Of a DNA stretch of 64,000 bases, positions 20,363-64,000 are shown piece after piece. Source of the stretch: Rhodanobacter sp. AS-Z3 (GTDB lineage Bacteria; Pseudomonadota; Gammaproteobacteria; Xanthomonadales; Rhodanobacteraceae); contig NZ_CP119392.1 in the NCBI RefSeq assembly GCF_029224025.1, positions 2,441,001-2,505,000 of the forward strand. Reading direction: 5' to 3'. Each line of letters opens with the position of its first letter. Within the stretch, counting starts at the first letter, position 1. A program made the position numbers and the translations under genes. Below the pieces are notes generated by a model that saw nothing but the letters and a program-made list of their open reading frames with translations, was not told the DNA's origin and did no database searches.

Positions 20363-20364
20363 CC

Positions 20365-22377: not shown

Positions 22378-22387
22378 TGACTATGCC

Positions 22388-23416: not shown

Positions 23417-23427
23417 AGGGGCCGGCG

Positions 23428-46861: not shown

Positions 46862-49800
46862 ATGGGAATTTCAATCGAAGGTGTGATCACCGCCAAGCTC
46901 GGGTTGGCGTCACATCAGAATGCCGTGCCGCTTCTTCGACAACTGACCATCATCAATGATGACGTCGAAGGACTTGACCACCTGGTTCTGGAGCTTGAGC
47001 CGAGCTTACCGTTTGCCAAGACAAAGATTTGGCGAATCGACAGGTTGGGGCCTGATTCCTCAATAGCAATTCCTGATCGCGATGTAGAGCTGAAGGATGG
47101 CTACCTAGCTGACTTGACCGAAAGTATGCAGGCTGCAGTGCAGCTTCGCTTGCGATCGGACGCTGGCGTTGTCGCGGAACACAGGTTTCCTGTCGAACTA
47201 CTCGCGCGAAATGAGTGGGGAGGTGCGGGAGCCATGCCCGAACTTCTGGCTGCTTTCTGTATGCCGAACGATCCTGCCGTCGACAAGGTTCTCAAGAAGT
47301 CGTCGGATACCCTGCGCAGGGCAGGGCGGCCAGATGGTATAGATGGTTATAAGGCGGGATCCCGTCAACGATCTTGGGAACTGGCCTCGGCTGTTTGGTC
47401 TGCCGTCTGCGGGTACCAAATCAGCTATGTGGTCCCACCGGCGAGCTTCGAGCAGCAGGGGCAAAAAATTCGGTCTCCTTCACAGATTCTGGAAGGAGGT
47501 GTAGGCACCTGCTTGGATACTGCTCTTTTGTTTGCTGCAGCCTTGGAACAGGCCGGCCTCAATCCCGTTCTTTTATTGACCAAAGGCCATGCATTCGCAG
47601 GAGTCTGGCTTCAGCCGCAGGAGTTTGCACAGGTACTAACTGAGGACGCCTCTTCAGTTCGCAAGCGCATTGAACTGCAGGAGCTTTTGGTGTTTGAGAC
47701 GACCTTGGCCACGCAATCGCCAGCTCCGGGATTCAGCCATGCAGTGGACGTTGCCAAGCGCCAGTTGACTGACGAAGACTTTGTGATCGCAGTTGACGTG
47801 CGTCGCGCTCGCATTCAGAAACTGCGCCCGCTGACGGTGCCCGCTCCGACCACGGCCCATGCGCAAGACGAAGAAGCTCCAACGGTCAACGAGGCTTTAG
47901 AAGCCGCTCCCTCGCTGCCTGGCTTTGACACTGACGTCGAGGATGAGCCTCTCACGCCGACCGACAAGCTGGAACTGTGGCAGCGCAAACTACTCGATCT
48001 GACTACGCGGAACCGCCTACTTCATTTGCCTGATAGCGCCAAGGCGATCCGCCTGACGTGTCCGGACCCGGCGGCACTTGAAGACATACTGTCGGCGGAC
48101 AAGAGTGTGCGCATAGTCAGCATGCCGGATCTCGAAGTGGGCGGGCGTGACAGCGAGATATACGAGAAACGTAACCGCGAAAGCCTAGAGGAAGAATCTG
48201 CCCGTCAGGCCTTGGTGCGCAACGAGGTGCTCTCACGGATGGAGAAGGGCAAGCTCGACGCGGCACTGATTGATCTTTATCGCAAAGCTCGCTCAGATAT
48301 GGAGGAGGGTGGCTCCAACACGCTATTTCTTGCCGTGGGTTTTTTGCGCTGGAAAAAGGCCGAGGATGATCCGAAAAGCTACTGTGCCCCCCTGATCCTG
48401 CTTCCGGTCAAGTTGGAGCGGCGCAGTGTGCTATCCGGCGTGAAGATGACCATGCTGGATGATGAGCCTCGGTTCAATCTGACGCTTCTGGAACTTCTTC
48501 GCCACGACTTCCAGCTCACTATCCCAGGCCTGAGCGGCGACCTGCCAGCGGACGAGAGTGGTATCGATGTCGAGGGTATCTGGAACATCGTACGTCGCGC
48601 CGTGCGTGATATCCCGGGCTTCGAGGTCACCACTGATGTTGTGCTGGGGACATTTTCCTTCGCGAAATACTTAATGTGGCGCGATCTGATCGATCGATCA
48701 GATCGATTGATGGAAAACGACGTCGTGCGGCATTTGCTGCACCACAAGCTTGGTGACTCCTCGCTTGAATCGGTGGGTGAGTTTCCAGAGCCCACGAAAC
48801 TCGATGCCGTCATCGATCCTCGCGAACTGTTTACGCCACTTCCGGCTGATTCATCGCAATTGGCCGCCGTAGTCGCTTCCGCCACGGGTCACAGTTTCGT
48901 GTTGGATGGACCACCGGGCACCGGCAAGTCGCAAACCATCGCCAATATGATTGCTCACAACCTCGCGCTTGGACGCCGTGTGCTGTTCGTGGCTGAGAAG
49001 ATGGCTGCCTTGGACGTTGTGAAGCGACGACTTGAAGACAAAGGCATCGGCCAGTTTTGCCTGGAGCTGCATTCGAGCAAGTCCTCCAAAATGCACGTGC
49101 TCGAGCAGTTGGATCGTGCATGGACATCGCGCGACACACTGACCGAGGCGGAGTGGAATGCGCAGGCCCAAAAGGTCAGATCGCTCCGTGATCGACTCAA
49201 CGAAGTCGTGAAAGTACTCCACGAACGCTGGCCCAACGGTTGGTCAGTCCATGAGGCCATTGGCCGTGTGGTGAAAGATGTGGTCGCACTGACGCCTCGG
49301 CTTTCCTGGCTGGATGGGACGGAGCATGACGCCACCCAGATGCAACATTTGCGGGATGTTGCCCGGCGGTTGGATCTAAACCGATCGGCTGCCCAAGATG
49401 TCGGCGCACGGATGACGCTCTTGACTCGGACCGAGTGGTCCAACGCTTGGCAGGAGACCGTGGTAGGAGCAGCTCGTCAGGTACTCACGACCCTCAATGC
49501 CTGCGATGAGGCGTGTGCACAGGTCGTTCGGAACACTGGGCTGTCGGTAGGCAGTTCGGCCCCTATGGCTGCCAAGCTTCTCGGGGTGTCTCGGCTCCTT
49601 CCCGACGCATACGGGGTGGATCTGCGCTTTGCGTTCTCACCAGAACTGAAAGCGATCAGTGCTTCAGCTCAGCGCGCCATGTCTCTGCTCAAGGACTATA
49701 AGGCGCTGGAAAACCGCTTGTCTCAGACTTATGCGCCAGAGGCGGTTCGTCGTATTGATATTGACACGTTGCGACGTAACTGGACCGACGCATCCGGGAA

Positions 49801-52753
49801 GTTTTGGTTCCTTGCCACGTTGGCAAAGAAGGGTGTAGCCAAGTCGCTCGCTGGCAACGTGGGAACGGCTGCTCTGCCTAGCGTAGGGGACGACCTTCCT
49901 CTGCTCGCCGAGATGCGGGCTCTGGTTGCCAAGATTGATCAGTTGGACGGCGATCTGCGCGAGGTTCCCGGATGGTCTGCGTTGAGCAGCAATGTCACGC
50001 GTATGGCATTCACCACTAGGTTGGCTGAGAGCCTTCGTGCAAATTTGATTCCGCTGGCCAGTTCACCTGAGCAGCTGATTAAGCTCCGCCACGAGATGCA
50101 AAAGCTGGTGATCGACGGCAATGACTTGCTGGATCCTAATGGTCCTATCGCGGGTGCCGTTGGACAGCTCACAAGTCGCCACAAGGCGCTATTCGAAGCG
50201 ACCGAGCAGTTTGGCAAGGCTGCCGGAGCTGAAGTCGATCTCAACAGGCAAGTTCCCGAGCTCTATGCCAATGCGCAAGCGGTCGTCGAAAACGAAAAGG
50301 CACTGAATGCCTGGTGTAGTTGGCGGCGCGTACGCCGAGAGGCAGTTGCGTGCGGGCTCCAGCCTTTGGTTGATGCGGTAGAGCAGGGCACGCTCCCTGT
50401 TGGCTCGGTCGCCGACACTCTAGAGGTGGCATATGCGCGCTGGTTTGCTGCCAAGGCGATCGACGCTGAGCCACTCCTATGCAACTTTGTCCCGGCCGAA
50501 CAACAGAGCGATATTGCCGCGTACCAAACAGCAGTTGACCAGTTGGGTGAGCTTACTTCCGCGTACATCCGCGCCAAGCTCTCGGGCAACATTCCGGATA
50601 AGAACGGCGTTACCAAGCGCAGCGGCTTTGGCGTACTCAAGCATGAGTTGCAAAAGCAACGCCGTCACAAGCCGGTACGTCAGTTGGCTCAGGAGATGGG
50701 CCTAGATTTCACGGTTCTGGCGCCGTGCATGCTGATGAGTCCGCTATCAATCGCCCAGTACCTGCCGGCCGACCACGAACTGTTCGATCTCGTTATTTTT
50801 GATGAGGCCTCGCAAATTGCGCCTTGGGATGCGGTGGGCTCCATCGCACGAGGAAAGCAAGTCGTTATCGCCGGTGATCCGCGGCAAATGCCCCCAACGA
50901 GTTTTTTCAATCGTGGCACTGACGATGGTGACGACGACACCGACGAAGATATGGAGAGCATCCTTGACGAGTGCATCGGTGCAGGTGTGCCGCAGCACAG
51001 TTTGAGCTGGCACTATCGTAGTCGACACGAAAGCCTGATTACGTTCTCAAACTACCGCTATTACGGCGGCAGCCTGATCACGTTTCCGGCGGCCGATACA
51101 CGCCCGAGCACGGTGACGTGGCGGAAGGTTGATGGCATCTATGCGAGGGGTAAGGGCGGGCGTCGTAATCCTCTGGAGGCCCAGGCGATCGTGGCCGAAG
51201 TAGTAAGGCGCTTGATCGACCCACAGTTCATCGCATCAAGACAATCTATTGGCATCATTACGCTCAACGCCGAGCAGCAAAAGCTGGTGGAAGATCTTCT
51301 CGATCAGGCACGGCGCGAGCATCAGTCAATCGAACCGTTCTTCAAAGATGATCTAAGTGAGCCTGTCGTGGTCAAGAATCTGGAGACCATGCAGGGAGAC
51401 GAACGAGATTTGATTATCCTGGGTATCGGCTATGGTCCCACCGAACCAAGTTCGAACGTCATGTCCATGAACTTTGGACCGCTCAATCGGGAATGTGGTT
51501 GGCGTCGCTTGAACGTCGCCGTTACGCGAGCACGTCGCGAGATGATGGTCTTCACGTCGTTCGATCCTTCGATGATTGACCTCAATCGCACTTCGGCACG
51601 GGCGGTACAAGATCTGCGGCATTTCATCGAGTTTGCGCAGCACGGCCCCAAGGCACTCTCTGCGGCGGTGCACGGTTCCATTGGTGACCACGACTCGCCG
51701 TTTGAGCAGTTCGTTGCGGAAGGGCTGCGTGCGAAGGGCTGGGAGACCCACCCGCAGATTGGTGTGTCGCGTTTTCGAATCGATCTGGGCGTCGTCCATC
51801 CCGATCGTCCGGGTGACTACTTGGTCGGCGTCGAATGCGACGGGGCGACGTATCACAGTGCGGCCACCGCACGCGATCGCGACAAGGTTCGAGCCGAGAT
51901 TCTGCGCGGCCTCGGCTGGCAGTTGGTGCGCGTTTGGTCGACAGAATGGTGGGTTGACCGCGACGGAGCGCTTCAGCGACTACATGAAGCCATCAGCGCA
52001 TTGCTCGAGAGCCAACGTGCCGACGCGGCGGAATTGCGGAAGACTCAGGAGATCGAAACGGCAGCCGCCGTCGAGTCGGTTAAAGCCGAAGGCGAGGCCA
52101 TTGCAGCGAGGGACGACGAGCCCGACTCAGATGGAGGAGATATTGTTGAGCCTGTTCCGGTAGTTTCGACGGAAGGCGAGAGCCAAGGGCCAGAACCTTT
52201 GCGTTTGGTTGCAAGTGGTCCAAGCAGCATCAGTGGAGAACCAACGAAGCGTATCTACCGCGTGACTGACCTCTCTCATCTGGAAACGTCACTGCGTCCG
52301 GAGAGCTTCCAAGACGCATCCTACGATGACACGCTTGAAAAATGCATCCAGGAAGTTCTGGAACAAGAAGCGCCGATTCTTGACAAGGTTCTCGTCGACC
52401 GCGTGGCTCGAGCGCATGGATTCAGGCGATCTGGTCGTCTGATTCGTGAGCGTGTCCTCGACATCGCCGAGCGCCGATATCACTTTCAACTCGATCCAGA
52501 GCCGGAACGTGGGCATTTCGTGTGGCTGGCTGCGGATGATCCTGGGCGTTGGTGCGCGTATCGGGTTCCGGAGCGGGAGGAAGATGTCCGCTCTATCGAG
52601 GAACTTGCTCCCGAGGAAATCATGGCTGCCGCACAGTCTATCCAGAGCGATGATGCAGTGGTTGATATCGCGAGGACTTTCGGAGTTCGCAGGCTCTCGG
52701 CTTCGGCAAAAGACCGGCTCCTCAGAATCCTCGGAGCAGGGCCTGAGTCCTAG
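46862..52753 (+). CDS. DUF4011-helicase-nuclease-DUF3320 protein (Hhe-like anti-phage type)
   Basis: The product is 1963 residues. Residues about 200-260 look transglutaminase/cysteine-protease-like (GGVGTCLDTALLFAAALEQA with Cys217, KGHAFAGVW with His243). DUF4011 starts near 365 (LELWQRKLLDLTTRNRLLHL). The superfamily-1 helicase has Walker A GPPGTGKS at 683-690, Walker B DEAS at 1314, ETMQGDERD and RRLNVAVTRARRE. A Vsr/MTES_1575-like nuclease domain follows (RFRIDLG with Asp1641, GVECDGATYH with Glu1658). DUF3320 lies at about 1810-1880 (LEKCIQEVLEQEAPILDKVL). This order matches the single-gene Hhe defence protein reported in a survey of bacterial antiviral genes, as I recall it. It probably restricts foreign DNA; the trigger is unknown. 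The start ATG 46862 is close to its GGGG ribosome site. Confidence 0.85.
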   Translation: MGISIEGVITAKLGLASHQNAVPLLRQLTIINDDVEGLDHLVLELEPSLPFAKTKIWRIDRLGPDSSIAIPDRDVELKDGYLADLTESMQAAVQLRLRSDAGVVAEHRFPVELLARNEWGGAGAMPELLAAFCMPNDPAVDKVLKKSSDTLRRAGRPDGIDGYKAGSRQRSWELASAVWSAVCGYQISYVVPPASFEQQGQKIRSPSQILEGGVGTCLDTALLFAAALEQAGLNPVLLLTKGHAFAGVWLQPQEFAQVLTEDASSVRKRIELQELLVFETTLATQSPAPGFSHAVDVAKRQLTDEDFVIAVDVRRARIQKLRPLTVPAPTTAHAQDEEAPTVNEALEAAPSLPGFDTDVEDEPLTPTDKLELWQRKLLDLTTRNRLLHLPDSAKAIRLTCPDPAALEDILSADKSVRIVSMPDLEVGGRDSEIYEKRNRESLEEESARQALVRNEVLSRMEKGKLDAALIDLYRKARSDMEEGGSNTLFLAVGFLRWKKAEDDPKSYCAPLILLPVKLERRSVLSGVKMTMLDDEPRFNLTLLELLRHDFQLTIPGLSGDLPADESGIDVEGIWNIVRRAVRDIPGFEVTTDVVLGTFSFAKYLMWRDLIDRSDRLMENDVVRHLLHHKLGDSSLESVGEFPEPTKLDAVIDPRELFTPLPADSSQLAAVVASATGHSFVLDGPPGTGKSQTIANMIAHNLALGRRVLFVAEKMAALDVVKRRLEDKGIGQFCLELHSSKSSKMHVLEQLDRAWTSRDTLTEAEWNAQAQKVRSLRDRLNEVVKVLHERWPNGWSVHEAIGRVVKDVVALTPRLSWLDGTEHDATQMQHLRDVARRLDLNRSAAQDVGARMTLLTRTEWSNAWQETVVGAARQVLTTLNACDEACAQVVRNTGLSVGSSAPMAAKLLGVSRLLPDAYGVDLRFAFSPELKAISASAQRAMSLLKDYKALENRLSQTYAPEAVRRIDIDTLRRNWTDASGKFWFLATLAKKGVAKSLAGNVGTAALPSVGDDLPLLAEMRALVAKIDQLDGDLREVPGWSALSSNVTRMAFTTRLAESLRANLIPLASSPEQLIKLRHEMQKLVIDGNDLLDPNGPIAGAVGQLTSRHKALFEATEQFGKAAGAEVDLNRQVPELYANAQAVVENEKALNAWCSWRRVRREAVACGLQPLVDAVEQGTLPVGSVADTLEVAYARWFAAKAIDAEPLLCNFVPAEQQSDIAAYQTAVDQLGELTSAYIRAKLSGNIPDKNGVTKRSGFGVLKHELQKQRRHKPVRQLAQEMGLDFTVLAPCMLMSPLSIAQYLPADHELFDLVIFDEASQIAPWDAVGSIARGKQVVIAGDPRQMPPTSFFNRGTDDGDDDTDEDMESILDECIGAGVPQHSLSWHYRSRHESLITFSNYRYYGGSLITFPAADTRPSTVTWRKVDGIYARGKGGRRNPLEAQAIVAEVVRRLIDPQFIASRQSIGIITLNAEQQKLVEDLLDQARREHQSIEPFFKDDLSEPVVVKNLETMQGDERDLIILGIGYGPTEPSSNVMSMNFGPLNRECGWRRLNVAVTRARREMMVFTSFDPSMIDLNRTSARAVQDLRHFIEFAQHGPKALSAAVHGSIGDHDSPFEQFVAEGLRAKGWETHPQIGVSRFRIDLGVVHPDRPGDYLVGVECDGATYHSAATARDRDKVRAEILRGLGWQLVRVWSTEWWVDRDGALQRLHEAISALLESQRADAAELRKTQEIETAAAVESVKAEGEAIAARDDEPDSDGGDIVEPVPVVSTEGESQGPEPLRLVASGPSSISGEPTKRIYRVTDLSHLETSLRPESFQDASYDDTLEKCIQEVLEQEAPILDKVLVDRVARAHGFRRSGRLIRERVLDIAERRYHFQLDPEPERGHFVWLAADDPGRWCAYRVPEREEDVRSIEELAPEEIMAAAQSIQSDDAVVDIARTFGVRRLSASAKDRLLRILGAGPES

Positions 52754-52989
52754 GCAGTTCACCAACATGGTGGAAGTCAGTGATTAGTGCAAAACGCAAG
52801 CCACCTGCGCACCTTCGCAACTGCAATTGATCAGCGGCGGCGAAACTGACCACAGCCAGTGGCCACACTGCGCTGCCCATCTCCGGCATTGATCCAGACG
52901 ACGCCAACGGCGCTCGAGAGGCTCGACAGGTGCGCTGGCCAGCGCAGTCGACAGGCAACAACCGGCCAACACTGTCGACTCCCCATAAA

Positions 52990-53808
52990 TCAGTGCCACG
53001 CTAAATTAGAGGTCGCCGGGTCGTTTTGAATGCGGAATTCGGCGGGCGTGAGCCCGTCGAGGCTGTCATGGGGAATCTCGTTGTTGTAGTCAGCTACCCA
53101 TCGTTCGGCCTGCTCGCGCACTTCGGTGAGATTGCGGAAGACATGCATGTCCAACACGCCACGCCGGAAGCTTCCGTTGAAGCGTTCGATAAAGCCGTTC
53201 TGCATCGGCCGGCCGGGCTCGATGAAGTCCAAGGCGATGCCCTTGCGTTCCGCCCATTCGGCCAGAGCCAGCGCGATGAACTCCGGGCCGTTATCCAGGC
53301 GCAGCTTGGTCGGGTAGCCGCGCCAGGCGGCGATGCGCTCCAGCGTGCGAATGACACGTGTGGCTGGTAGGTTGAGATCCACTTCGACCGCCAGCGCTTC
53401 GCGACTGAAATCATCGATCACATTGAACGTACGAAAGCGCCGCCCGTCCCACAGGGCGTCGGACATGAAGTCGATCGACCAACTGCTGTTGATCTGGTCG
53501 CCGGCCACCAACGGCATCGGGTGCCGGTTGGGTAACCGCTTCTTTCCGCGGCGGCGCCGGTTGAGCTGCATCAGGCAGTACACGCGCCACACCCTCTTGT
53601 GATTCCAAACCAGCCCGCGACGGCGGATCAGTTGGAACAGCTTGTCGAAACCACGCTCCGGAAACCGCTCAGCCAGCTCGGCCAGCAACGCAATCACTGC
53701 TTCGTCCCGATCCACTCGGCGTTTGTAGCGTGCCGTCGATCGAGAAAGCCCCACCGCCTGACAAGCCCGACGCTCGCTCCAGTCGTGAACATCCATCAGC
53801 CACGACAT
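52990..53808 (-). CDS. IS3-family transposase OrfB (catalytic part)
   Basis: The product is 272 residues as read from 53808. In the element it is expected as the C-terminal part of a fusion made by -1 frameshifting from orfA. The integrase core shows DDE residues in SWSIDFMSDALWDGRRF, LRLDNGPEFIA and PGRPMQNGFIERFNGSFRR. The N-terminal HTH_21-like region (ERGFDKLFQLIRRRG) is complete. The end HDSLDGLTPAEFR is the usual C-terminal motif. The frame is intact. Confidence 0.92.
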   Translation of the reverse strand: MSWLMDVHDWSERRACQAVGLSRSTARYKRRVDRDEAVIALLAELAERFPERGFDKLFQLIRRRGLVWNHKRVWRVYCLMQLNRRRRGKKRLPNRHPMPLVAGDQINSSWSIDFMSDALWDGRRFRTFNVIDDFSREALAVEVDLNLPATRVIRTLERIAAWRGYPTKLRLDNGPEFIALALAEWAERKGIALDFIEPGRPMQNGFIERFNGSFRRGVLDMHVFRNLTEVREQAERWVADYNNEIPHDSLDGLTPAEFRIQNDPATSNLAWH

Positions 53809-53831
53809 CAGCGGGCGCTTGTGCGCCGGGT

Positions 53832-54098
53832 CTATAGTTTTTTTGCGATGACGTCCTTCAGCGCCATGTTCTCCAGCGACAGATCAGCGAACATGCGCTT
53901 GAGGCGGCCGTTCTCTTCTTCCAGATCCTTCAGACGCCGAACATCAGCCGCTTCCATGCCGCCGTACTTGGACTTCCAGACGTAGTAGGTGGCGTCCGAG
54001 ATACCCAGCTCTCGGCACACATCTTTGACCTGTCGACCGCCTTCGACCTGCTTCAGCGTCGCGACGATCTGGCTCTCGGTGAACTTGCTCTTGCGCAT
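53832..54098 (-). CDS. IS3-family transposase OrfA (HTH part)
   Basis: The product is 88 residues from ATG 54098. A helix-turn-helix (FTESQIVATLKQVEGGRQ, then CRELGISDATYYVWKSKYGG) is followed by a leucine-zipper segment (LKDLEEENGRLKRMFADLSL). The gene ends in GCAAAAAAACTATAG. The run of seven A is the likely slippery site for the -1 shift that joins OrfA to OrfB through the residues K-K-T-I-D-P. Confidence 0.92.
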   Translation of the reverse strand: MRKSKFTESQIVATLKQVEGGRQVKDVCRELGISDATYYVWKSKYGGMEAADVRRLKDLEEENGRLKRMFADLSLENMALKDVIAKKL

Positions 54099-54172
54099 CG
54101 TTGGTCTCCTTAGGGGCTAGTTTGCCCGGAGACCTCTGGTTATGCCTGGACCAAGTTTATGGGGAGTCGACA

Positions 54173-54592
54173 ACACCGGCTGTTCGTCCAAGTCACATAG
54201 GCGCCGCAAAGTAGCCGTTCGCCGCCGTCAGGAATGGATTGATCTCTGTCTGTCACAGCTTGTCAGGCCCGCGCGGAGGCTACAGTCCAAAACCGTCGGT
54301 CGCGTTTTGAGCCGGGCTGGGCGTGCGGTCAAAAAGGGTGCTCGTTGTTATCGTGACGACCAGTTGCCTCCGCCCGAGAAATTCCATAACTGTGCCCGCG
54401 ATGGGTCATGCATGGCGTTCACCCTAAGCCTTGCACCCGATCGGAGTTACGTATGCGCGAGTTGATAGTTGGGATTTGCCTCAGCAGTTAGCTTATTCGG
54501 TAACAGTCCCTGACTCTCACCCCGGCTTGTGAAGCCATTCGGTCGAAGTCAGATCCGAGCAGATGGCGTCGTTGACGCAAGGGGAAAACGCA
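54173..54592. other. Stretch between IS3 and the permease genes without a recognised gene
   Basis: About 420 bases have no open frame with coding features on either strand. An ABC ATPase gene would be expected next to FtsX-like permeases, but none is seen. The end of the stretch holds the ribosome site AAGGGG used by the permease at 54593. No terminator or promoter could be assigned with confidence. Confidence 0.45.
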
Positions 54593-55897
54593 GTGTTTGC
54601 CTACTATCTGGAACTGGCCGTGCGCAGCCTGCGGCGCAGCCCTGGCCTTACTGCGCTGATGATGCTGGCGATCGCCTTTGGCGTGGCGGCGTCCATGACG
54701 ATGTATTCGGTATTTCGCGGCATATCCGCCGATCCGATTCCGTGGAAGTCGTCGCAACTGTTCGTGCCGCAAATCGACGTCTGGGGCCCGGGCCACCGCG
54801 ACAATGGTGAACCGCCTATCGCGTTGACCTATACCGATGCCATGGCGCTGATGCGCCAACATCGGGCCTTGCGCCAATCCGCGATCACTTCGTTTTTTCG
54901 GTCGGTAAGGCCGCCGCGTTTCAGCGAAAACGACAGTCTGATCGACGCTCGGGGCTATGCGGTCTACAGCGAATTTTTTCCCATGCTGGATGTGCCGTTT
55001 CACTACGGCACTGGCTGGAGTGCGGACGACGATGCGGGTCGAACCCCGGTTGTGGTGATAAGCGATCACTTCAACCAGGAGATGTTCGGCGGCGGCAACA
55101 GCGTCGGCAAGAGCATAACCATCGACACCCACGACTATCGGGTTGTGGGTGTTGTCAGGTACTGGAACCCGCAACCGGATTTCTTTAGTGCTCTCCAGTT
55201 CCGACTCGAGGCGCCAGACTTTTTTTTACCGTTTCAATTCTTGATGGCGAACCATGCCTTCATGGGGTTCAAATGCCAGAAAGGCATCGACCTGGCTTTC
55301 ACTGCGACGCTTTTGAGCCCGGACTGTCCATGGATCTCGTACATGGCTGAACTGGATACTCCAGCGGCCGTACAGACGTATCGGCAATATCTCGATGCGT
55401 ATACCAGCGAACAGCAAAAGATGGGCCGCTTCACCTGGAGCCCGAACAACCGCCTGCGCGACGTGCCGGCGTTTCTCGACTACCGGCATGTGGTACCCAG
55501 CAATACGGAACTGTCGTTATTGGTGGCGCAAGGCCTGCTGGTCGTATGCCTGCTCAATACGGTGGGGCTGCTGCTGGCCAAGTTCCTTCGGCGCGGGGTC
55601 GAGATCGCCGTGCGGCGTGCACTCGGCGCCTCACGGGCGTCGATCTATGCTCAATTTCTCACCGAGGCAGGACTGATCGGCGCCGGGGGCGGCATGCTCG
55701 GGCTGCTGCTGACGGTCATTGGCGTGCTCAGTATCGGTGCGGTGATGCCAGCACAGCTGGCCGCGCTGGCGCGACTCGACCCCAGCTTGCTGTTGCTCAC
55801 GCTGCTGCTTGCCGTGACGGCCACCCTGCTTGCCGCTGTCTATCCTGCGTATCGCGCGTCGCAGGTACCACCTGCGCTTCAGCTCAAAGCACAATGA
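54593..55897 (+). CDS. MacB/FtsX-like ABC transporter permease
   Basis: The product is 434 residues. I chose GTG 54593 (VFAYYLELAVRSLRRSP), eight bases after AAGGGG, because it matches the usual start of the family; ATG 54563 would add ten residues. There is one N-terminal membrane segment (LTALMMLAIAFGVAASM), then a periplasmic MacB-type core (ARGYAVYSEFFPMLDVPFHY and VVVISDHFNQEMFGG). Three C-terminal segments form the FtsX domain, with VEIAVRRALGASRASIYAQF. It is cotranscribed with the next gene. Such permeases need a LolD/MacB-type ATPase, which is not in this window. Substrate unknown. Confidence 0.85.
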   Translation: MFAYYLELAVRSLRRSPGLTALMMLAIAFGVAASMTMYSVFRGISADPIPWKSSQLFVPQIDVWGPGHRDNGEPPIALTYTDAMALMRQHRALRQSAITSFFRSVRPPRFSENDSLIDARGYAVYSEFFPMLDVPFHYGTGWSADDDAGRTPVVVISDHFNQEMFGGGNSVGKSITIDTHDYRVVGVVRYWNPQPDFFSALQFRLEAPDFFLPFQFLMANHAFMGFKCQKGIDLAFTATLLSPDCPWISYMAELDTPAAVQTYRQYLDAYTSEQQKMGRFTWSPNNRLRDVPAFLDYRHVVPSNTELSLLVAQGLLVVCLLNTVGLLLAKFLRRGVEIAVRRALGASRASIYAQFLTEAGLIGAGGGMLGLLLTVIGVLSIGAVMPAQLAALARLDPSLLLLTLLLAVTATLLAAVYPAYRASQVPPALQLKAQ

Positions 55898-55907
55898 GGA
55901 TAACGCA

Positions 55908-57128
55908 GTGAACGTTTATCCCATCCTTATGGCATTGCGCCGACACAAGGTCGCCGTGCTCCTTATCGTGTCGCAAATCGCGCTGACCCTGGCGATCGTC
56001 GCCAATGCCTTCTTCCTTATCGGCCATACCATCGAGCACATGACTCGCCCAAGCGGGCGCCAGGAAGATGGTCTGATCGTGGTTTTGCAGAAATGGACAG
56101 GCTTGTCTGATAACGATGGTGCTGCCCTTGTGGAGAAGATCGATGCCTCGCAACGCACGGATCTAGCAGCAATAAGAAATTTGCCGGATGTGCAGGAAGT
56201 TGCAGCCTCAAGCCAGGAAGATGACGCCGGCACTATTTCTCTTGATGCGGACGGCAAAGGCAAACTTGTGCAGGCAGGCTACTTTTACGGCGACGAACAC
56301 TTGCGATCGACCCTCGGCCTGCACCTGGTTGCGGGTCGCGACTTTTTCGCGGACGAGATCCGACATGGCGAGGGACTTCCGGGCTCACCTATTGTCATCG
56401 TTAGCAGGCCCCTCGCGAATCAGCTGTTTCCCCATGGCAACGCACTTGGTCAAACGGTTTATCAGGACAGCAAGCCGGCCACGATTGTGGGCATCGTCGA
56501 GCGCTTGCAGACATCGATGGGGGAAGACACGAATTGGGAATTCAACGCGGTGATGGAACCGCTGCGAGAAGATGGCCTGTGGACGGCCTACGCGGCACGC
56601 GCGCGCCCCGGCCGCACCACGGAGGCGATGCGCGAAATCCACAAGGCACTTTTTGCAGTGAAACCCATGCGCCACATGCCGCAAGCGTGGGCCGGCGTCC
56701 ACAGGTTCTCCGAGAAGCGCGCCAGGGGTTTCAGCGAAGAGCGCGGCATCGCGGTACTGATAGGCGTGATTTGCGTCATTTTGCTGAGCGTCACCGCCGC
56801 CGGCATCGTCGGCCTGACCAGTTTCTGGGTCACCCAGCGGCATCGGCAGATTGGCGTGCGGCGCGCACTAGGTGCGAGAAAGATCGACATCCTGCGCTAC
56901 TTCCAGATCGAGATCCTGCTGATCGCCGGCGCTGGCGCGATCATCGGCGCGCTAGGTGCGGTTGGCCTCAACACATGGCTGATGAGGCGCTACGAGATGC
57001 TGCATCTTCCGCTGTTCTACGTGGCCATAGGCGCACTTGTCATGCTCGTGCTTGGCCAGGTTGCCGTGCTGGTGCCAGCGCGCCGTGCTTCCAACGTGCC
57101 GCCGGTGGTGGCGACGCGGTCGGTTTGA
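55908..57128 (+). CDS. MacB/FtsX-like ABC transporter permease, partner subunit
   Basis: The product is 406 residues from GTG 55908, with TGAGGA just upstream and ten bases after the previous stop. The upstream in-frame ATG at 55830 is inside the preceding gene and was rejected. The topology matches its neighbour: one N-terminal segment (VAVLLIVSQIALTLAIVANA), a periplasmic domain with LHLVAGRDFFADEIRHGEG, and a C-terminal FtsX domain with HRQIGVRRALGARKIDILRY. The two probably form a heterodimeric permease that moves lipids, lipoproteins or peptides at the inner membrane. The FtsX role is by family; the substrate is unknown. Confidence 0.85.
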   Translation: MNVYPILMALRRHKVAVLLIVSQIALTLAIVANAFFLIGHTIEHMTRPSGRQEDGLIVVLQKWTGLSDNDGAALVEKIDASQRTDLAAIRNLPDVQEVAASSQEDDAGTISLDADGKGKLVQAGYFYGDEHLRSTLGLHLVAGRDFFADEIRHGEGLPGSPIVIVSRPLANQLFPHGNALGQTVYQDSKPATIVGIVERLQTSMGEDTNWEFNAVMEPLREDGLWTAYAARARPGRTTEAMREIHKALFAVKPMRHMPQAWAGVHRFSEKRARGFSEERGIAVLIGVICVILLSVTAAGIVGLTSFWVTQRHRQIGVRRALGARKIDILRYFQIEILLIAGAGAIIGALGAVGLNTWLMRRYEMLHLPLFYVAIGALVMLVLGQVAVLVPARRASNVPPVVATRSV

Positions 57129-57356
57129 GTATTGAACCCTTGGTCAGCAGAGTTCGGTCTTCTTGGTCAAATTCTCCGCTCTACGCAGATAGCGGCTTTC
57201 CAGAAAGCGGACACCAGCCAACGACTGCTTTGGGTCGCCTGCTGCCGTCAACGTCGATTGACAACCGATTACGTTGATAGGTGGACGGGTCAGTGACCAA
57301 CGATCCGGTGATACGTCCGCTCCGGCGCGTACGACGAGACTGCCACGCGCCAGCAG
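57129..57356. other. Spacer between the permease operon and junction repeat C
   Basis: There is no gene I can support in these 228 bases. Frames on both strands are short and lack ribosome sites. Together with repeat C and the following 120 bases it makes a gene-free stretch of about 400 bases, which must hold the promoter of the nitrilase-like operon. None could be picked out by eye. Confidence 0.4.
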
Positions 57357-57404
57357 AGCAGGGCGATTAGCCTGTGTTATCGCGGGTAGAGCGGGGCCGC
57401 TTTT
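57357..57404 (+). repeat. Structured junction repeat, copy C, with hairpin and T-run
   Basis: The sequence is GCAGGGCGATTAG, then CCTGT, then GTTATCGCGGGTAG, followed by the stem AGCGG (57390-57394), loop GG, CCGCT (57397-57401), then TTT. This hairpin with T-run would work as an intrinsic terminator. It aligns over about 40 bases with copy B, and the stem bases differ in a compensating way (AACAGC/GCTGTT there, AGCGG/CCGCT here). It lies 230 bases after the permease gene and 120 bases before the nitrilase-like gene. Confidence 0.6.
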
Positions 57405-57526
57405 CAAACTGACACGTGCGAGATTCAAGCAGTGCAACACGGAAGCGAAGGACTTGTCCGGCGTGATCTGACCGGTAACATGGCACTTGCCAGCCAGCGA
57501 TTCTCGCCGTGGCAGGGAGGCTGTTC

Positions 57527-58984
57527 GTGTCGTGGATGCTGGATGCAAGGGCGCTGCTTGAGACGCTTGGCCAACCGCTGGCGGTGTCTTCCGCTTTCAT
57601 TGCGCTGTTCCGGTTCATCGAGAACTCGCCGGACGGCAGGTTCGGCTGGTTGTCGCTGGGAGATGACGCCGTCAGTGGGCACGAGTTCGCGGTGGAGGTC
57701 ATCCGTTGGCGTACGGAGATCCGAGAGTGCATCGGCCGCGAAGATCGGTTTCCGTCGTGTACCCAGATCGCAGAGTTGGGCGCGGTGCTGGAGGCGATTA
57801 CCGCGCTCGGCCGCATCTCGCCCCAAAATTCCAAACGCCTAGTCATAGCGCTGCGAGTGCTGGATGATGCCTTCCAAGGGGTCCATCCCGCCGAAGTTAT
57901 ATCGGCAACGGATGCGGAAGGTTTCGTCGCGTTGCGTACCCGTATCCGCCTTGGGCAATCCCTGTTTGAGGCTGACGCACTGCGTGCGTATCCCAAGCCA
58001 CGACGATTGAACTCCCCAGATTTGCGGGGACAGGGTCGCCTGACCGATTTGCTGGTTAATCTTGCGATCGTCAACTGCGGGTCGCAGTTGCAGGTGGTAA
58101 ATCTGATGGCGTTCGCCAACGGATCTCCGGGTCCCGCGGGATTCAGGCACATCGGCATCATTCCCACGATCGACTCCCACTATGAGCTTGTGTGGAAGAA
58201 GGAAGACAACCGCCGATACTCCATCGGAGAGCATCCCGGTGCCCGTGCGGCCATCCACGCTCGTGTCAGCGCCGCGCTGGCGCTGCTCGTCGCAGAAGGC
58301 GCGGAGCTGGTGCTCATGCCCGAACTGGTGGCCTCTCCTGACTTGACGGTACTGATCGCGGAAGAGCTCGCTGCGCGTCGGCGCAATGGTCTACATAACC
58401 CCCATCTAGTACTCGTGGGTACCCAGCTGGTGAAGGACGTCGACGACAAGGTGCGTAATCGGGCACGCGTACTGAACGCTGAAGGAGATACCGTCTGGGA
58501 GCAAGACAAGCTGCATGCCTACCGGTTCAGCGCCAAGGAGCAAGCCGAGGCTGACCACCCCATGGGCCTAGACGACTTGGTCGATCGAACCGAAGCCATC
58601 GATGTGGAGCCTCGGACACTCTACATCGTCGATCTTTCACCGACGCAACGGGTCACGATCTTGACCTGCGAAGACTTCATTCAGCCCGATCCGCACCGGG
58701 CCGTCGTTGCCGACATCGTGGCCACGACTATCTTGGTGCCGATCATGTCTGGCCGTCGCGCTGGGCAGCACTTGGGCTGGATCCAGGATGCGGCCATGAA
58801 CTACGTGCGGCACCCTGGCGCCACCTGCGTTGTGGCCAATTCGGGAACGTTGCTCGGTCTCACCCCTGAGGGTTGGCAGTTTGGCCACGTAGTGGCGCCC
58901 CTTCGGGTTCCAGAGCATTGGGAGCCATTGCCCCATTCGTCGGCACCCATCGCCTGGCTTGTAGATCTAGGGCGACTCGTGTAA
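57527..58984 (+). CDS. Nitrilase-fold (carbon-nitrogen hydrolase) protein
   Basis: The product is 485 residues. I chose GTG 57527 because GGGAGG ends six bases upstream; GTG 57509 and ATG 57536 are alternatives. Residues about 1-205 form a helical domain I cannot name. From about 206 (FRHIGIIPTIDSHYEL) the nitrilase fold begins. The catalytic triad is visible as Glu266 (AELVLMPELVAS), Lys328 (WEQDKLHAYRF) and Cys381 (VTILTCEDFIQPD). A late CVVANSGTLLGLTPEGW fits the fold. Nitrilases hydrolyse amides, nitriles or NAD-like compounds. The extra N-terminal domain and the nuclease operon suggest a signalling or effector role rather than metabolism; that is an inference. Confidence 0.72.
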   Translation: MSWMLDARALLETLGQPLAVSSAFIALFRFIENSPDGRFGWLSLGDDAVSGHEFAVEVIRWRTEIRECIGREDRFPSCTQIAELGAVLEAITALGRISPQNSKRLVIALRVLDDAFQGVHPAEVISATDAEGFVALRTRIRLGQSLFEADALRAYPKPRRLNSPDLRGQGRLTDLLVNLAIVNCGSQLQVVNLMAFANGSPGPAGFRHIGIIPTIDSHYELVWKKEDNRRYSIGEHPGARAAIHARVSAALALLVAEGAELVLMPELVASPDLTVLIAEELAARRRNGLHNPHLVLVGTQLVKDVDDKVRNRARVLNAEGDTVWEQDKLHAYRFSAKEQAEADHPMGLDDLVDRTEAIDVEPRTLYIVDLSPTQRVTILTCEDFIQPDPHRAVVADIVATTILVPIMSGRRAGQHLGWIQDAAMNYVRHPGATCVVANSGTLLGLTPEGWQFGHVVAPLRVPEHWEPLPHSSAPIAWLVDLGRLV

Positions 58985-58985
58985 A

Positions 58986-59003
58986 ACAATTGTCGACAAT
59001 TGT
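58986..59003. promoter_or_regulatory. Perfect 18-bp palindrome, candidate operator
   Basis: The sequence ACAATTGTCGACAATTGT is a complete palindrome made of two ACAATTGT half-units around CG. It starts one base after the nitrilase stop and ends 11 bases before the ATG of the winged-helix gene. Such a site is ideally placed for the winged-helix protein to repress its own gene and the downstream nuclease gene. No second copy was noticed elsewhere in the window. Confidence 0.6.
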
Positions 59004-59013
59004 AAGGTGTTTT

Positions 59014-59772
59014 ATGCTAATGCCGTCTCAAATAATTGCGAGACTGATCGAGCCGACTCTGCATGCTGTGTCCCGGCCCAGTGCGGAGGGCATCCGAGCG
59101 GTGCTGGACCAAGCACTTGCATCCACTCGTGCTACTCGGGAAGTACTTAGACAGCAGGGCGAGGCCGTGCACGCGCCGTCCTTCGAATTGGGCGCAGGGA
59201 CCGCATTCGTAGAGATGCTGGGCACAATGCAGCAGCGAAGCATTCTGGGAGATGCAATCCGTGCCGCGACAGAAGCGCCGCGAGGCACCGAGATACTCCA
59301 TCTTGTCGGCGTGCTGAGTCTGTCCACGGCTGCGGCCACACAGGGTGGGCTGGCGGATCGGCTTGGCATCGATCGCGGCAACTTCAATCGCTATGTACGC
59401 CGTTTGGCGGACGCTGGGTTGATCCAGTCGCAGCGGTCGAGCCGACGCGTCGATTACCGGCCGCTGCCGCTAGGTCTGGAGGTTCTCAACTATCTTCGGC
59501 CGGGTTGGAAAGCGCTCGATCCTAAGACCAACACCTTGCTGCAGTTCGAAGAGTGCATCCGGGCATCGGTGAAAGGGGAGACCACGGATCCCGCCGGGCT
59601 GGGCAAGAATCGCAAAGAGGTTTCTGTATTGGAACTCCTGGAAGCAGTGACCGCGAGCCATGCTGTCTTCGGCAGCGAACACATGCGGATGGGGAAGATG
59701 GCGAGTCACCGCAGCTTCGGCATTTCGCGCGCATCGACCTCCCAAACCGAGTTTTTGCAGGAAGTGGCGTGA
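59014..59772 (+). CDS. Winged-helix DNA-binding protein, likely operon regulator
   Basis: The product is 252 residues from ATG 59014 (MLMPSQIIARL). The open frame reaches back into the nitrilase gene, but this start follows the operator and a weak AAGGTG site. Residues about 25-85 are helical. A winged helix lies at about 90-160: ILHLVGVLSLSTAAATQGGL, then ADRLGIDRGNFNRYVRRLAD and AGLIQSQRSSRRVDYRPLPL, a typical recognition helix and wing. The C-terminal 90 residues are unassigned. The stop shares one base with the next start (TGATG), so it is tightly coupled to the nuclease gene. MarR/ArsR-like folds often bind palindromes like the one upstream. Confidence 0.75.
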   Translation: MLMPSQIIARLIEPTLHAVSRPSAEGIRAVLDQALASTRATREVLRQQGEAVHAPSFELGAGTAFVEMLGTMQQRSILGDAIRAATEAPRGTEILHLVGVLSLSTAAATQGGLADRLGIDRGNFNRYVRRLADAGLIQSQRSSRRVDYRPLPLGLEVLNYLRPGWKALDPKTNTLLQFEECIRASVKGETTDPAGLGKNRKEVSVLELLEAVTASHAVFGSEHMRMGKMASHRSFGISRASTSQTEFLQEVA

Positions 59773-62700
59773 TGCAGTCACGCGCGCAGGCGCCAACTGC
59801 CCCCTTGGTCGGTATTCCAGGAACCGAAGCCAACGCCAGTAAGGGCGGCTATTACTACCAAGACCTGGTCACCTCCTTGGCTTGGGTGAAACTGGGCATC
59901 GGCGAAGCGTTGCATATCGAAATCGCCGAGGACTATGCCGTCGCCACGGGAACGGATGCGCAAGTTACCCAAGTGAAACATGTCGGTGGTGTACTGACAT
60001 TGACGAGTGCCGTGGAGTACCTAGAACGCTTCCTACGCATGGTTGCGGACAACCACGGACGGAGCCTGTCGTTCGTGTACTTAACCACGTCCGAGATCGG
60101 TCAGGAAAAGGAAGTTCAGCACCGGCCCGACGGGAAGCGGGGAATCGTTTACTGGCAGGACGTCCAAGTGGGCGCCGACCCTGCACCCTTGATCGCAGTC
60201 CTTAAGAAACTCGCACCAGCAGGCGGAAAGCTGTCCGCATTCCTTGCTGCCAAGTCCAATGCCGAGATCGTTCGAGATCTGATCCAGAAAGTCGCATGGG
60301 CCGCCCGAGCGCCCGCTCCCGACGCCATCAGAAATGAACTGCGGGAACAGGTCGCGGCAATCGCTCTTGAAGAGGGCGAACAAAAATATGCCAATGGACG
60401 CCGACTCTGGTCCATCGTCGTCGACACTGTTACTCGTGTATCGACCGATCCCGTGGAAAGCACACGCGTTCTAACCTATCAGGGTCTGCGTGAGCTGATC
60501 CGCAACGAGCTGTTGGTCACTCTGCCGAAGGACGAGTATGCGGTGCTGCTCGGCGACGCGGCGCTGGCAAAGAATTTGCCGCTCGCGCCGGTCAACGACG
60601 ACATTCAGCGCCGGCTGGAGCAGCTTCGCCAGTCCAGATTTCTTTCAGAGGCCAACGCGATCGATACCGCGAAGGCGCTTGGTCAAGACGTCGCCGACGG
60701 CGGCACCTACCAGATCGGCGACCCGCAGGTGCGCGCGATCACGCTGTGCTGGTGCGCGCGAGTACTGCTCGAAGAACATGCCGAAATTGCCGAGGAATAC
60801 CTCGACAATGCGGCACGCGTTGCCACAGTCATGGAGCACGATCAAGTCAAGGCGCTGTTTCTGGCTGGGCGCGACAAGGACGAAGCCCGGCGCTTGGTCG
60901 CAAATGATCACTCCGCCGCAGCGGAGACGATCCGCTACGCGATCGCACGCAAAGGCAGTGTCGACGAGGGTATCGCATGGCTCGCGGTGGTGGCGGCGAG
61001 TCCGGCGCAGTTTGATGGCAGCGGGCAAAGCCTGATACTCCTGGACCTGCTGACATCAAAGCGCTGGAAGGATGCTGTCGACTGGTTCGAGCGGATTCCT
61101 GAATCCTCGTTCGAGCAGTTTCCGTTCCTATCGTGGGCAGGCGCTTATTCGCTGGTAGCCTGGGGGACGGTTGACACGGCGCGTAGTACCGTACTTTCGG
61201 GCCCTCCCATCGGCGACGAACTCCATCTCCGTGACGATCCGCCTGCGATGGCGGCTCGCCGTCGCGCAGTGGAACTGTTCCGCCGGTTCCACGTGGTGGC
61301 GAAAGGCTGGGGGCTGCAGGACACCACCCAACAATCCCTTGAGTATGCGCTGTGGCTTCTGCTGGAGGACAGACAATCACGCACAGCAGCGATCGCTGAA
61401 ATTTCAAGGCTGTGGAAGGAGGAGTCGAGTAGTAATTTCCGCTGGCTGCCTCTCGCGCTACGTGCCGGCGTAGATATGGACAAGAGCACGCTCGTCGCAA
61501 AGCTTGACGGGCAATCCGTGCGGTACGGCTCACTAAGCTACAGCGACGCGCGCGCGCGCCTAGCATTACTTTTCCACATGCCAGCGGAGACGTGGATAGA
61601 CGCGTGGCCTGGGATAAGCGCGAACATCTCTGCCTATTTCACCGCCGAATTCCTGCAACACGTCCACATTCAGGGCTTGATCCATTTGGGCCGACTGGAT
61701 CAAGCGCGTTCGGAACTAGCAGAGACCACAGGAATTCCAGAAGAGCTGCGCAAGCGTTTGGAGCTTGAGTTGGACAGACCTGATCCGCAAACGCTGGAAC
61801 AATACCGGCAGGCGGTGAGGCGGGATGCCTCGCCTGCTTCGCTCCACAATCTGGTCATCGCGTTGCAAAAAGCGGGGGATCCGGCAGGCGCGTCAATTTA
61901 TGCGCTCAAACTCTTCGAGCAAACCCAGGAGCATGAGAACGCAAGGGAGTATTTGGATCTATTGCGGCAGCAAGACAGGTGGAAGGATATCGTCGACTTT
62001 CTGGCCGGCAACGAATTCCTTCTGGAACAGTCGACGCTACTGGGGCGACTATATGTCGATGCTCTGATCCGTCATGGACGCTGGAAAGAGGCGCGCGCAG
62101 CTGCCGATGCGCATCTCGATCTAGGGGGCGATCGCGCCGACCTCAACCTGCAGCTATCCGTCAGCTCAGGACGCTGGGACGAAGTCGGCCTGCTCCTCGA
62201 GGAGGCGAACGCTGACCCCAACCTGGATTCCGGCGAATTGATGCGCTTCGCGCACATCGCCACCAATCTGGGCAACATTCCACTGACCAAGCAACTCGTA
62301 AAGCGTGCCGTGGCGACTGCTAGCCAGGATCCCAAGATCTGCTGGAACGCCTACATGCTGGCGGTGCAGGGCAACTGGGAAAGCGAATCAGAGGTACGCC
62401 ATTGGTTCCAAGTCAGTATCGATAGCGCGGATACCGAAGGAAGTCCGGTTCACAGAGGCAAACTCTCGGACCTGGTGGACATGGCGCCAGCATGGCGTGA
62501 ACGCACCGATACTCTTGAGAAATCCATCGCATCCGGTGACATGTTCCTTGCCCTAGCGGCCCATCAAGTTAACCGCCCCTTGGCTAGTGTCATTGCCGGT
62601 ACAGCGATCGCTAACGAGAACGAACCAGACTTCCGCCGCATCTCCCCCATACCGGCATACGCCGGTGTGGAGCGCCAGTCCGCTGTCCGGCCCGGCTCAA

Positions 62701-64000
62701 TCGCAATAGATGCCACTGCGTTGCTGACGCTGGCGCGATTGGGTGTGCTGCAAAGTGCTCTGGATCTCTTCCACGCGATCCATGTCCCCCACAGCACCGG
62801 TGTCTGGCTGTTCACCGAAGCCTCACAAGTCCGCTTCCACCAGCCTGGCCAGATCACGAATGCTAAGCGCCTGCAGCAGGCCATCGCACGCGACGACCTG
62901 AAGGTCGCCGACGCGAGTATCGCCTTTCCTAAGCCGCTGGCAGACGAGGTGGGAGCTGATCTGGCACAGCTACTCGCCGCCTGTCAAGCGGACCGCGATG
63001 TAGGAAAACAGGCGTTCGTGATCCGGTCCACGCCCTTGCATCGCGCCGGGAGTTACCTCGAAGAAGTAGCCAATGTCGGCGATCGCCAACCTTTGTTCCG
63101 CAGCACGCTGGAAGTAGCGCGATCATTGCATCGGTACGGAGGCGTTTCGGATTCGCTGTACGCGGACGCCTTGGATTATCTGCGCTTGCAGGACGAGGGC
63201 TGGCCCGATGAAGAACTGATTCCCCAGGGCGCTCGACTTTACCTGGACGACTTGGCGGTCACCTATCTGCAGCATGTTGGCCTACTGAAGCCGCTCGCTG
63301 ACGCTCGGTTTCAGCTATTCATCCATGCTGATGTGCGGGCCCAGGCCGTGGCGTTTGGTGCTCTGGAAGACGTGGGCGAGAACGTCGCGGACGTGATCGA
63401 GCAGATACGCCGATTCTTCGTCAACGGCCAAGAACGCGGAGTAGTGCGCGTTCTACCGCTTCCGGTTCGAAATCGGGCGGCAGGGCACGACGGCGGCCCA
63501 GTCGAGGTCACGGCCGGCGTGTTGCTGGAGCAGATGTTCCAGCAAGAAGAGGGCATCGAAGCCGTGATCTTCGATGATCGGGCCGTGAATCGGCATTCAT
63601 CGTTCAGCTATCCAAACGAGACGAGTGTCGCCGTCTGCACCACGCTGGATGTCATCGACTGGATGCACGAAAAAGGGTTGATGGAGGAGCGAGCGCGGCT
63701 GAAATGCCTGGTCACTCTCAGGCGCTCTGGGTATTTGTTCATGCCGCTGGATGCCACCGAACTGCGCGCTGCGCTTGCCGGCTCGAAAGTGCATGAAGGC
63801 GAGCTGTTCGAGTCTGTCGCTGCTCGCGCGATCCGTGAAAATCTGCTACTGGCACGGGCATCAGGTCTGCTGCAACTGCCAATGGAGATGTTCTGGTACA
63901 CGGCGCATGTGGCCCAGATTGCGAAAGCCGTGACTGAATTGTGGTCGGGCGACAGCGTGGATGACGATGTTCCGGTCAAAGCATCGTGGCTACTCGATCT
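59772..64000 (+). CDS. Nuclease-helical repeat-PIN protein (3' end outside window)
   Basis: The frame is open from ATG 59772 to the right edge, at least 1409 residues. Residues about 25-75 match the start of Cap4/DUF4297-type double-strand nucleases: GGYYYQDLVTSLAWVKLG, then an acidic pair (Glu53-Asp54 in IEIAEDYAVA) and Gln67-Val-Lys69 in TQVKHV. Residues about 330-960 are TPR-like helical repeats (GRWKEARAAADAHL, SGRWDEVGLLLEEAN). From about 975 a PIN-like RNase domain is suggested: SIAIDATALLTLARLGVL with Asp980, VIFDDRAVNRH with Asp1268 and Asp1269, then CTTLDVIDWMHEKGLM. PIN folds use clustered acids. Two nucleolytic domains around a repeat scaffold suggest a stress or anti-phage effector; function is inferred. 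Confidence 0.75.
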   Translation, partial: MQSRAQAPTAPLVGIPGTEANASKGGYYYQDLVTSLAWVKLGIGEALHIEIAEDYAVATGTDAQVTQVKHVGGVLTLTSAVEYLERFLRMVADNHGRSLSFVYLTTSEIGQEKEVQHRPDGKRGIVYWQDVQVGADPAPLIAVLKKLAPAGGKLSAFLAAKSNAEIVRDLIQKVAWAARAPAPDAIRNELREQVAAIALEEGEQKYANGRRLWSIVVDTVTRVSTDPVESTRVLTYQGLRELIRNELLVTLPKDEYAVLLGDAALAKNLPLAPVNDDIQRRLEQLRQSRFLSEANAIDTAKALGQDVADGGTYQIGDPQVRAITLCWCARVLLEEHAEIAEEYLDNAARVATVMEHDQVKALFLAGRDKDEARRLVANDHSAAAETIRYAIARKGSVDEGIAWLAVVAASPAQFDGSGQSLILLDLLTSKRWKDAVDWFERIPESSFEQFPFLSWAGAYSLVAWGTVDTARSTVLSGPPIGDELHLRDDPPAMAARRRAVELFRRFHVVAKGWGLQDTTQQSLEYALWLLLEDRQSRTAAIAEISRLWKEESSSNFRWLPLALRAGVDMDKSTLVAKLDGQSVRYGSLSYSDARARLALLFHMPAETWIDAWPGISANISAYFTAEFLQHVHIQGLIHLGRLDQARSELAETTGIPEELRKRLELELDRPDPQTLEQYRQAVRRDASPASLHNLVIALQKAGDPAGASIYALKLFEQTQEHENAREYLDLLRQQDRWKDIVDFLAGNEFLLEQSTLLGRLYVDALIRHGRWKEARAAADAHLDLGGDRADLNLQLSVSSGRWDEVGLLLEEANADPNLDSGELMRFAHIATNLGNIPLTKQLVKRAVATASQDPKICWNAYMLAVQGNWESESEVRHWFQVSIDSADTEGSPVHRGKLSDLVDMAPAWRERTDTLEKSIASGDMFLALAAHQVNRPLASVIAGTAIANENEPDFRRISPIPAYAGVERQSAVRPGSIAIDATALLTLARLGVLQSALDLFHAIHVPHSTGVWLFTEASQVRFHQPGQITNAKRLQQAIARDDLKVADASIAFPKPLADEVGADLAQLLAACQADRDVGKQAFVIRSTPLHRAGSYLEEVANVGDRQPLFRSTLEVARSLHRYGGVSDSLYADALDYLRLQDEGWPDEELIPQGARLYLDDLAVTYLQHVGLLKPLADARFQLFIHADVRAQAVAFGALEDVGENVADVIEQIRRFFVNGQERGVVRVLPLPVRNRAAGHDGGPVEVTAGVLLEQMFQQEEGIEAVIFDDRAVNRHSSFSYPNETSVAVCTTLDVIDWMHEKGLMEERARLKCLVTLRRSGYLFMPLDATELRAALAGSKVHEGELFESVAARAIRENLLLARASGLLQLPMEMFWYTAHVAQIAKAVTELWSGDSVDDDVPVKASWLLD

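Follow-up and report, generated by a model that had tools for sequence, protein, structure and literature searches.

What does a giant multidomain protein do when its gene directly follows those of a nitrilase-like enzyme and a small DNA-binding regulator? The question is raised by the end of a 64,000-nucleotide stretch (hereafter the window) of the genome of Rhodanobacter sp. AS-Z3 (4.09 Mb, one contig), where three genes of the same orientation encode, in close packing, a nitrilase-superfamily protein, a winged-helix (wHTH) regulator and a giant protein of 2130 residues (Table 1). A preliminary description of this DNA had reported three tightly coupled genes with the last two sharing a base, and the coordinates agree: the ATG of the giant at 59772 overlaps the TGA of the wHTH gene by one base. 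For the nitrilase gene, an earlier in-frame GTG at 57509 is a possible alternative start. The giant gene itself is real, and what had been described of it was the first 1409 of its residues, the rest lying beyond the window; in fetched flanking DNA, the gene ended at L007:10164 (G000:C1:2507164), after 2130 codons.

A defence role of this operon is likely. We read it as a three-gene defence module comprising a giant nuclease effector, a self-regulated MarR-type switch and a nitrilase that would set the threshold, and we give this reading slightly better than an even chance. It is preferred because the order of the trio is kept in three genomes and is absent from seven giants with another N-terminus, because the nitrilase and giant diverge in parallel, with a conserved operator-like motif and an invariant nitrilase triad, and because defence genes are found nearby, namely ProA in the window and LmuB at one of the other loci (L037).

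The N-terminus of the giant was assigned by profile comparison. A profile of 12 sequences (A3; 12 of 15 slices used) matched the solved DUF4297 chains 8ziq_A (expectation value E 6.9e-5), 8xav_G (1.6e-4) and 9c1m_A (0.0015) with the ED...Q-x-K motif in register in the three alignments, which bears out the Cap4/DUF4297-like E-D...Q-V-K motif first read at this end. The same profile also matched AbpA (8zue_A, E 0.0049). We take the solved DUF4297 chains to act with partners such as HerA. The PADLOC LmuA model recognized 10 of the 12 A3 members (best 2.1e-14) and gave no match to the window's own giant, and Pfam PF14130 (Cap4_nuclease) matched weakly in 2 of 19 aligned rows (best 0.042). These 19 aligned giants include that of the window, and E53 is Glu in all 17 rows that have a DUF4297-type N-terminus, P0039 and P0040 being left out for want of one. 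By family, this part of the giant would be a DUF4297/Cap4-type nuclease of the DNase type.

The helical repeats previously placed between the two nuclease parts are TPR/PPR-like, since a profile of the middle region (A2) matched designed PPR/TPR chains with a best E of 1.1e-14. TPR_14 was found in 9 of the 19 aligned giants and reached E 0.0042 in that of the window, which is under the Pfam cut-off. The PIN-like domain that had been proposed at about residues 975–1330 does belong to a PIN family by Pfam, and its layout is that of a double-PIN region preceded by a helix-turn-helix (HTH). The latter, PF24407, is present in all 19 aligned rows, and PF20698 (PIN-TPR-GreABC) scored 30.6 bits in the window's giant (cut-off 27.8; best stretch 979–1028) and was found in 15 of the 19 rows at E 0.1 or less. 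D980, D1268 and D1269 are Asp in 19/19 giants, and E1016 is Glu in 18/19. The profile searches suggested in the preliminary description as a check on the nuclease and PIN families thus returned both DUF4297-type and PF20698 matches, and the four residues that it had named for mutation (E53, K69, D980 and D1268) are present in the protein. The double-PIN region is a predicted RNase. A predicted structure of residues 890–1409 (predicted local distance difference test score 82.6, predicted template modelling score 0.69) contained several alpha/beta elements.

Judged by these domains, the giant is a new member of the already predicted TPR, GreA/B-C, PIN family of conflict proteins. In the available portion of PMC8195603 (eLife 2021), a constant core of these three parts, preceded by an EAD10 domain or one of 13 effector domains, REase included, was predicted from sequence to mark conflict proteins, and an action on RNA polymerase hijacked by viruses was proposed; the same text notes, as a tendency, that most of the genes stand alone and have few conserved neighbours. 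No experiment on TPR/GreAB-C/PIN proteins was found in the literature searched (open-licence full texts). PF24388 (Permuted_GreAB-C) was detected in 6 of the 19 aligned rows (best 4.3e-6). The N-terminus proved to be exchangeable, being DUF4297-type in the window's giant, HNH_2 in L052 (E 5.3e-4, just under its cut-off) and a DUF676 esterase in L067 (over the cut-off). At three loci (L053:6957-12688, L067:5245-11750 and L068:5602-11569), two overlapping genes take the place of the single giant gene, and in L053 the split point corresponds to about residue 1490–1525 of the window's giant; the C-terminal 640 residues therefore appear to be a separable module. A DUF4297-like N-terminus was also seen on proteins of about 1300–1370 aa at L057-L060, another architecture using the same effector domain, and three of these four gave weak AAA/STAND-like NTPase matches.

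The order nitrilase, wHTH, giant was found, tightly packed, in the window's genome (L007), in G438 (L037) and in G1030 (L065), which belongs to another family of the same order as the window's genome. The preliminary description had made its proposal depend on the three genes occurring together elsewhere, and in G438 and G1030 they stand in the same order. The window's genome was the query, G438 was found with the nitrilase profile and G1030 with the giant profile; a search from either end, nitrilase or giant, led to the other partner once each. At E 0.001 the nitrilase profile matched 24 of 233 genomes, and 22 of the 24, being short and weak (E 1e-7 or worse) and pointing to ordinary-looking nitrilases, were set aside. 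The count of giants leaves out the short or weak matches in G560, G574, G654, G739, G990 and G987 (locus L066, a repeat fragment of 346 aa), and the plasmid match H2, with the same length and scores as H1, was also omitted.

Neither the nitrilase, the wHTH nor the motif was found at any of the seven giants with another N-terminus (L052-L056, L067 and L068; upstream flanks of 5.2 to 9.8 kb), which profile A3 does not match at E 1 or less and which carry PF24407 above its cut-off in 7/7 cases, or at any of five loci with a like N-terminus on another body (L057-L060 and L069). The nitrilase–giant pairing is so far restricted to one N-terminal type of giant. In the protein database, all three proteins share a longest contig of equal size (40395), the nitrilase and giant share two further sizes (13997 and 10712), and the nitrilase and wHTH share one (7086); these equalities suggest linkage. 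When the distance matrices of nitrilase and giant were compared over six pairs, three of which are linked only through equal-sized longest contigs in a set of lengths that leaves out the window's own contig, the correlation was r = 0.94, a value reached by 1 of 720 permutations, the identity. The parallel divergence and the restriction to one N-terminal type suggest more than generic regulation.

These results bear directly on the alternative in which the giant acts alone, as published for its family, and its two partners do no more than adjust its expression; in this view, the nitrilase would clear a wHTH inducer, or make one, from host metabolism. The seven family giants without nitrilase or wHTH fit this alternative, and so do the motif, which precedes wHTH and giant and was not found elsewhere in the genome, and the mostly standalone genes of the family in the accessible text of PMC8195603. 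The parallel divergence of nitrilase and giant and the limitation of the pair to one N-terminal type argue the other way, and we consider this alternative rather unlikely.

An operator-like 18-bp perfect palindrome, ACAATTGTCGACAATTGT, occupies part of the gap separating the nitrilase and wHTH genes; in it, two ACAATTGT octamers are spaced 10 bp apart, about one helical turn. At the same position, L037 carries ACAATTGTAGACAATTGT and L065 carries ACAATTGTTGACAATTGT, and the consensus ACAATTGTNGACAATTGT is identical outside N at all three trio loci, which represent three genera, despite identities of about 45% among the nitrilases and 36–42% among the giants. In a search allowing up to 2 mismatches, the motif occurred at one place per genome in 3/3 trio genomes; the reversed control pattern gave one match, in G438. 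The wHTH protein matched MarR_2 (28.8 bits, cut-off 27) and HTH_24 (28.2 bits, cut-off 21.9), and in an alignment of seven sequences, G120, N121, F122 and R124 of the HTH (G-N-F-x-R) were retained in 7/7, with a variable C-terminal part. The simplest reading of the motif, and a well-supported one, is that it would be the autoregulatory site of the wHTH.

A gene overlap together with a dedicated and conserved operator-like site resembles autoregulated toxin–antitoxin pairs. The operon could accordingly be seen as a toxin–antitoxin or dormancy module, with the giant as toxin and the wHTH as operon-repressing antitoxin. Seven relatives of the giant lack a wHTH of this sort nearby, and the giant family therefore does not need a wHTH partner; moreover, the trio always includes a further gene, for an enzyme. 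This interpretation appears quite improbable.

In the nitrilase-like protein, residues 1–202 form a mostly helical extension, the extra N-terminal part noted in the preliminary description, and residues 203–485 form the nitrilase fold. The E-K-C triad, likewise noted there, corresponds to E266, K328 and C381 and is invariant among the 18 relatives. In hhalign comparisons with ordinary nitrilases, the Glu and Cys of the triad were paired and the Lys was placed two residues off around a gap. Alignment A4 drew on 10 of 19 sequences, namely the window's own and 9 of 18 slices. The protein is probably a live amidase-type enzyme. The C-E-D motif at its nucleophile also occurs in a 543-aa nitrilase-domain protein of the window's genome that is NAD synthetase-like by eye.

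A nitrilase in a defence setting has a precedent in DRT1. According to the part of PMC13275509 that was accessible, the nitrilase domain of DRT1 is proposed as an abortive-infection effector that is inhibited until infection; nitrilases are called uncommon in defence there, and the substrate of the DRT1 domain is left open. By analogy, the nitrilase of the operon could be the toxic effector and the giant a sensor that releases it upon infection, a proposal with which the invariant triad agrees. Against it, the Pfam search listed no reverse transcriptase family for any of the three operon proteins, unlike DRT1, the giant owns nuclease-type domains, and the motif follows the nitrilase gene instead of preceding it. 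We regard a toxic nitrilase as very improbable.

In the preferred reading as a defence module, the giant would be a conflict effector of the TPR/GreAB-C/PIN kind with a DUF4297/Cap4-type DNase in the N-terminal slot and a double PIN as RNase. The wHTH would bind the ACAATTGT pair ahead of its own gene and repress both itself and the giant, as the conservation of the motif suggests. The nitrilase may make or remove a small amide-bearing molecule that would be read by the wHTH or by the repeats of the giant and would set the threshold for expression or activation, either releasing the wHTH or licensing the giant. Such a module would travel in integrase-bearing islands, in keeping with its neighbourhood. 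We think it rather doubtful that the nitrilase is a full signalling arm, its amide-bearing molecule, which may be nucleotide or NAD-related, for example, both lifting the wHTH from the operator and licensing the nucleases of the giant. If true, this would be a form of messenger control for which the literature searched gives no precedent among nitrilases.

Several results weigh against the defence module. The nuclease lysine K69 is Lys in 11 of the 17 rows, the window's giant included, and Arg in the other 6, and it is Arg in both other genomic trios (L037 and L065). PF24388 was not found in the window's giant at E up to 1. The structure prediction proposed earlier as a check on the PIN-side nuclease site gave no significant PDB match for residues 890–1409 in support of the PIN fold. 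A scan for sigma-70-like promoters over L007:1000-4000 found 0, with 0.7 expected. The trio comes from three genomes only, two of which were found by means favouring the pairing; one of these two is the query genome and the nitrilase led to the other, G438, so that in one direction neither tests the pairing independently. Finally, an action of the nitrilase on the wHTH or giant proteins is what we infer. Of the preliminary proposal of a defence or dormancy system in which the nitrilase controls a dual nuclease, what stands is the likely defence role and a giant with two nuclease-type regions by family.

The genomic setting of the operon is rich in mobile DNA. On the upstream side there are two permease-like genes and an IS3-type transposase pair (all by eye), and then the anti-phage gene ProA. 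On the downstream side, a transposase of IS type (by eye) is followed by genes for a tyrosine integrase and a KfrA-type protein. The mobile DNA reported beside the operon was thus recovered, the transposase by eye and the integrase by Pfam. The neighbouring defence gene at 46862-52753 had been called Hhe-like, and this assignment is replaced by ProA. The Hhe model was rejected with a score of 816 against its cut-off of 2000, ProA scoring far higher. The distance of about 4.8 kb was correct (52753 to 57527). At L037, an integrase 89% identical to the one downstream of the window's giant and a KfrA relative adjoin the Lamassu gene LmuB (422 bits, truncated at the locus end); about 5.6 kb separate LmuB from the giant, and the integrase stands between them. 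At L065, an integrase relative in two frames stands at the end of the giant.

The integrase is common: in the family, 38 of 117 genomes have a match to it at E up to 1e-40. This rules it out as an operon-specific component and makes it a shared carrier, not part of the system. Integrase and KfrA-type pairs recur near defence cargo (L037:1652-3621 and 17861-19557; L007:12919-15071), and in L037 their relatives flank the trio on both sides. Throughout the family, the pair may serve to carry defence genes. At L065:1120-2988, a gene 2.5 kb from the giant gave a partial mads_3 match over 77 residues (74 bits).

This neighbourhood also bears on a reading outside defence, in which the operon serves RNA/DNA processing in the host stress response and lies in islands by chance. 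The literature searched yielded no phage phenotype, and the system is rare, the only full-length giant match among the 398 genomes of the order search being in the window's own; both observations fit that reading. It is opposed by the patchy distribution, the integrase and KfrA neighbours, the proximity of ProA and LmuB and the exchangeable effector family, and we hold it to be very unlikely.

Other loci were recognized by eye elsewhere in the window. Large genes at 1-17000 look like a contractile phage-tail-like locus, one of them with a DUF4157-like start, and a Tn7-type transposition module-like cluster (transposase, ATPase, TniQ-like) lies at 19670-24810. The segment 29903-44885 encodes a repeat-rich RTX-like protein of 2805 aa; behind it come genes resembling those of an ABC exporter, an adaptor and an outer-membrane protein, and glycosyltransferase-like genes lie near the cluster.

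Table 1. Position of the operon, its predicted domains and sites, and the neighbouring defence gene in the window.
Feature	Position	Strand	Details
Anti-phage ProA gene (context only, outside the operon)	46862..52753	+	NCBIfam NF058533 2172 bits, cut-off 1500; PADLOC PDC-S37 1163 bits
Nitrilase-superfamily protein gene	57527..58984	+	485 aa; GTG start
Nitrilase E266 codon, catalytic Glu by motif	58322..58324	+	E in 18/18 relatives
Nitrilase K328 codon, catalytic Lys by motif	58508..58510	+	K in 18/18
Nitrilase C381 codon, nucleophile by motif (C-E-D)	58667..58669	+	C in 18/18, then invariant E, D
Operator-like 18-bp palindrome	58986..59003	.	two ACAATTGT octamers
Winged-helix (MarR-type) regulator gene	59014 or 59020 to 59772	+	250 aa counted from ATG at 59020
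Giant TPR/double-PIN/GreAB-C family protein gene	59772..64000, running past the window	+	2130 aa
Predicted DUF4297/Cap4/LmuA-type nuclease domain	59799..60521, giant residues 10-250	+	E53, D54, Q67, K69; profile A3
TPR/PPR-like helical repeats	61539..62210, giant residues about 590-813	+	profile A2 vs designed PPR/TPR chains
PF24407 HTH_upst_double_PIN	62463..62666, giant residues 898-965	+	Pfam 57.7 bits (cut-off 27)
Double PIN region PF20698	62706..63791, giant residues about 979-1340	+	Pfam; invariant D980, D1268, D1269

As far as a search of open-licence full texts with a few terms reaches, a nitrilase–wHTH–operator module on such a giant has not been described. The operator-like site, the dedicated switch and the enzyme provide handles on how a giant of this kind could be silenced and turned on, and they suggest that chemical as well as genetic control can act on a TPR/GreAB-C/PIN protein, a kind mostly described as solitary. 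With the 18-bp motif, a binding assay could test the regulation step directly, and a free-standing nitrilase beside its presumed target should be easier to assay than the nitrilase domain of DRT1.

Compared with the solved DUF4297 chains (8ziq, 8xav and 9c1m) and LmuA of Lamassu, the giant shares the N-terminal domain and its ED...Q-x-K motif, but its domain is fused to TPR and PIN parts and the Lys is often Arg. Unlike Lamassu, the three operon proteins gave no LmuB match. The giant resembles the TPR/GreA/B-C/PIN systems in its N-terminal effector, TPR, HTH and PIN, with GreAB-C in its relatives; whereas the published genes are mostly standalone in the available portion of PMC8195603, those of L007, L037 and L065 stand beside a nitrilase, a wHTH and an operator-like motif. 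With DRT1, as presented in the accessible part of PMC13275509, the operon has in common a nitrilase-fold enzyme in a defence setting, but here the nitrilase is a separate protein with its own N-terminal part, and its partner is a nuclease-type giant. Finally, the operon is similar to the loci of BrxR (PMC9122589) and RptR (PMC12255303) in having a dedicated DNA-binding protein tied to a defence locus; it differs from them, as far as the accessible parts of both papers go, in that its MarR-type wHTH has a likely site inside the operon that is found once per genome.

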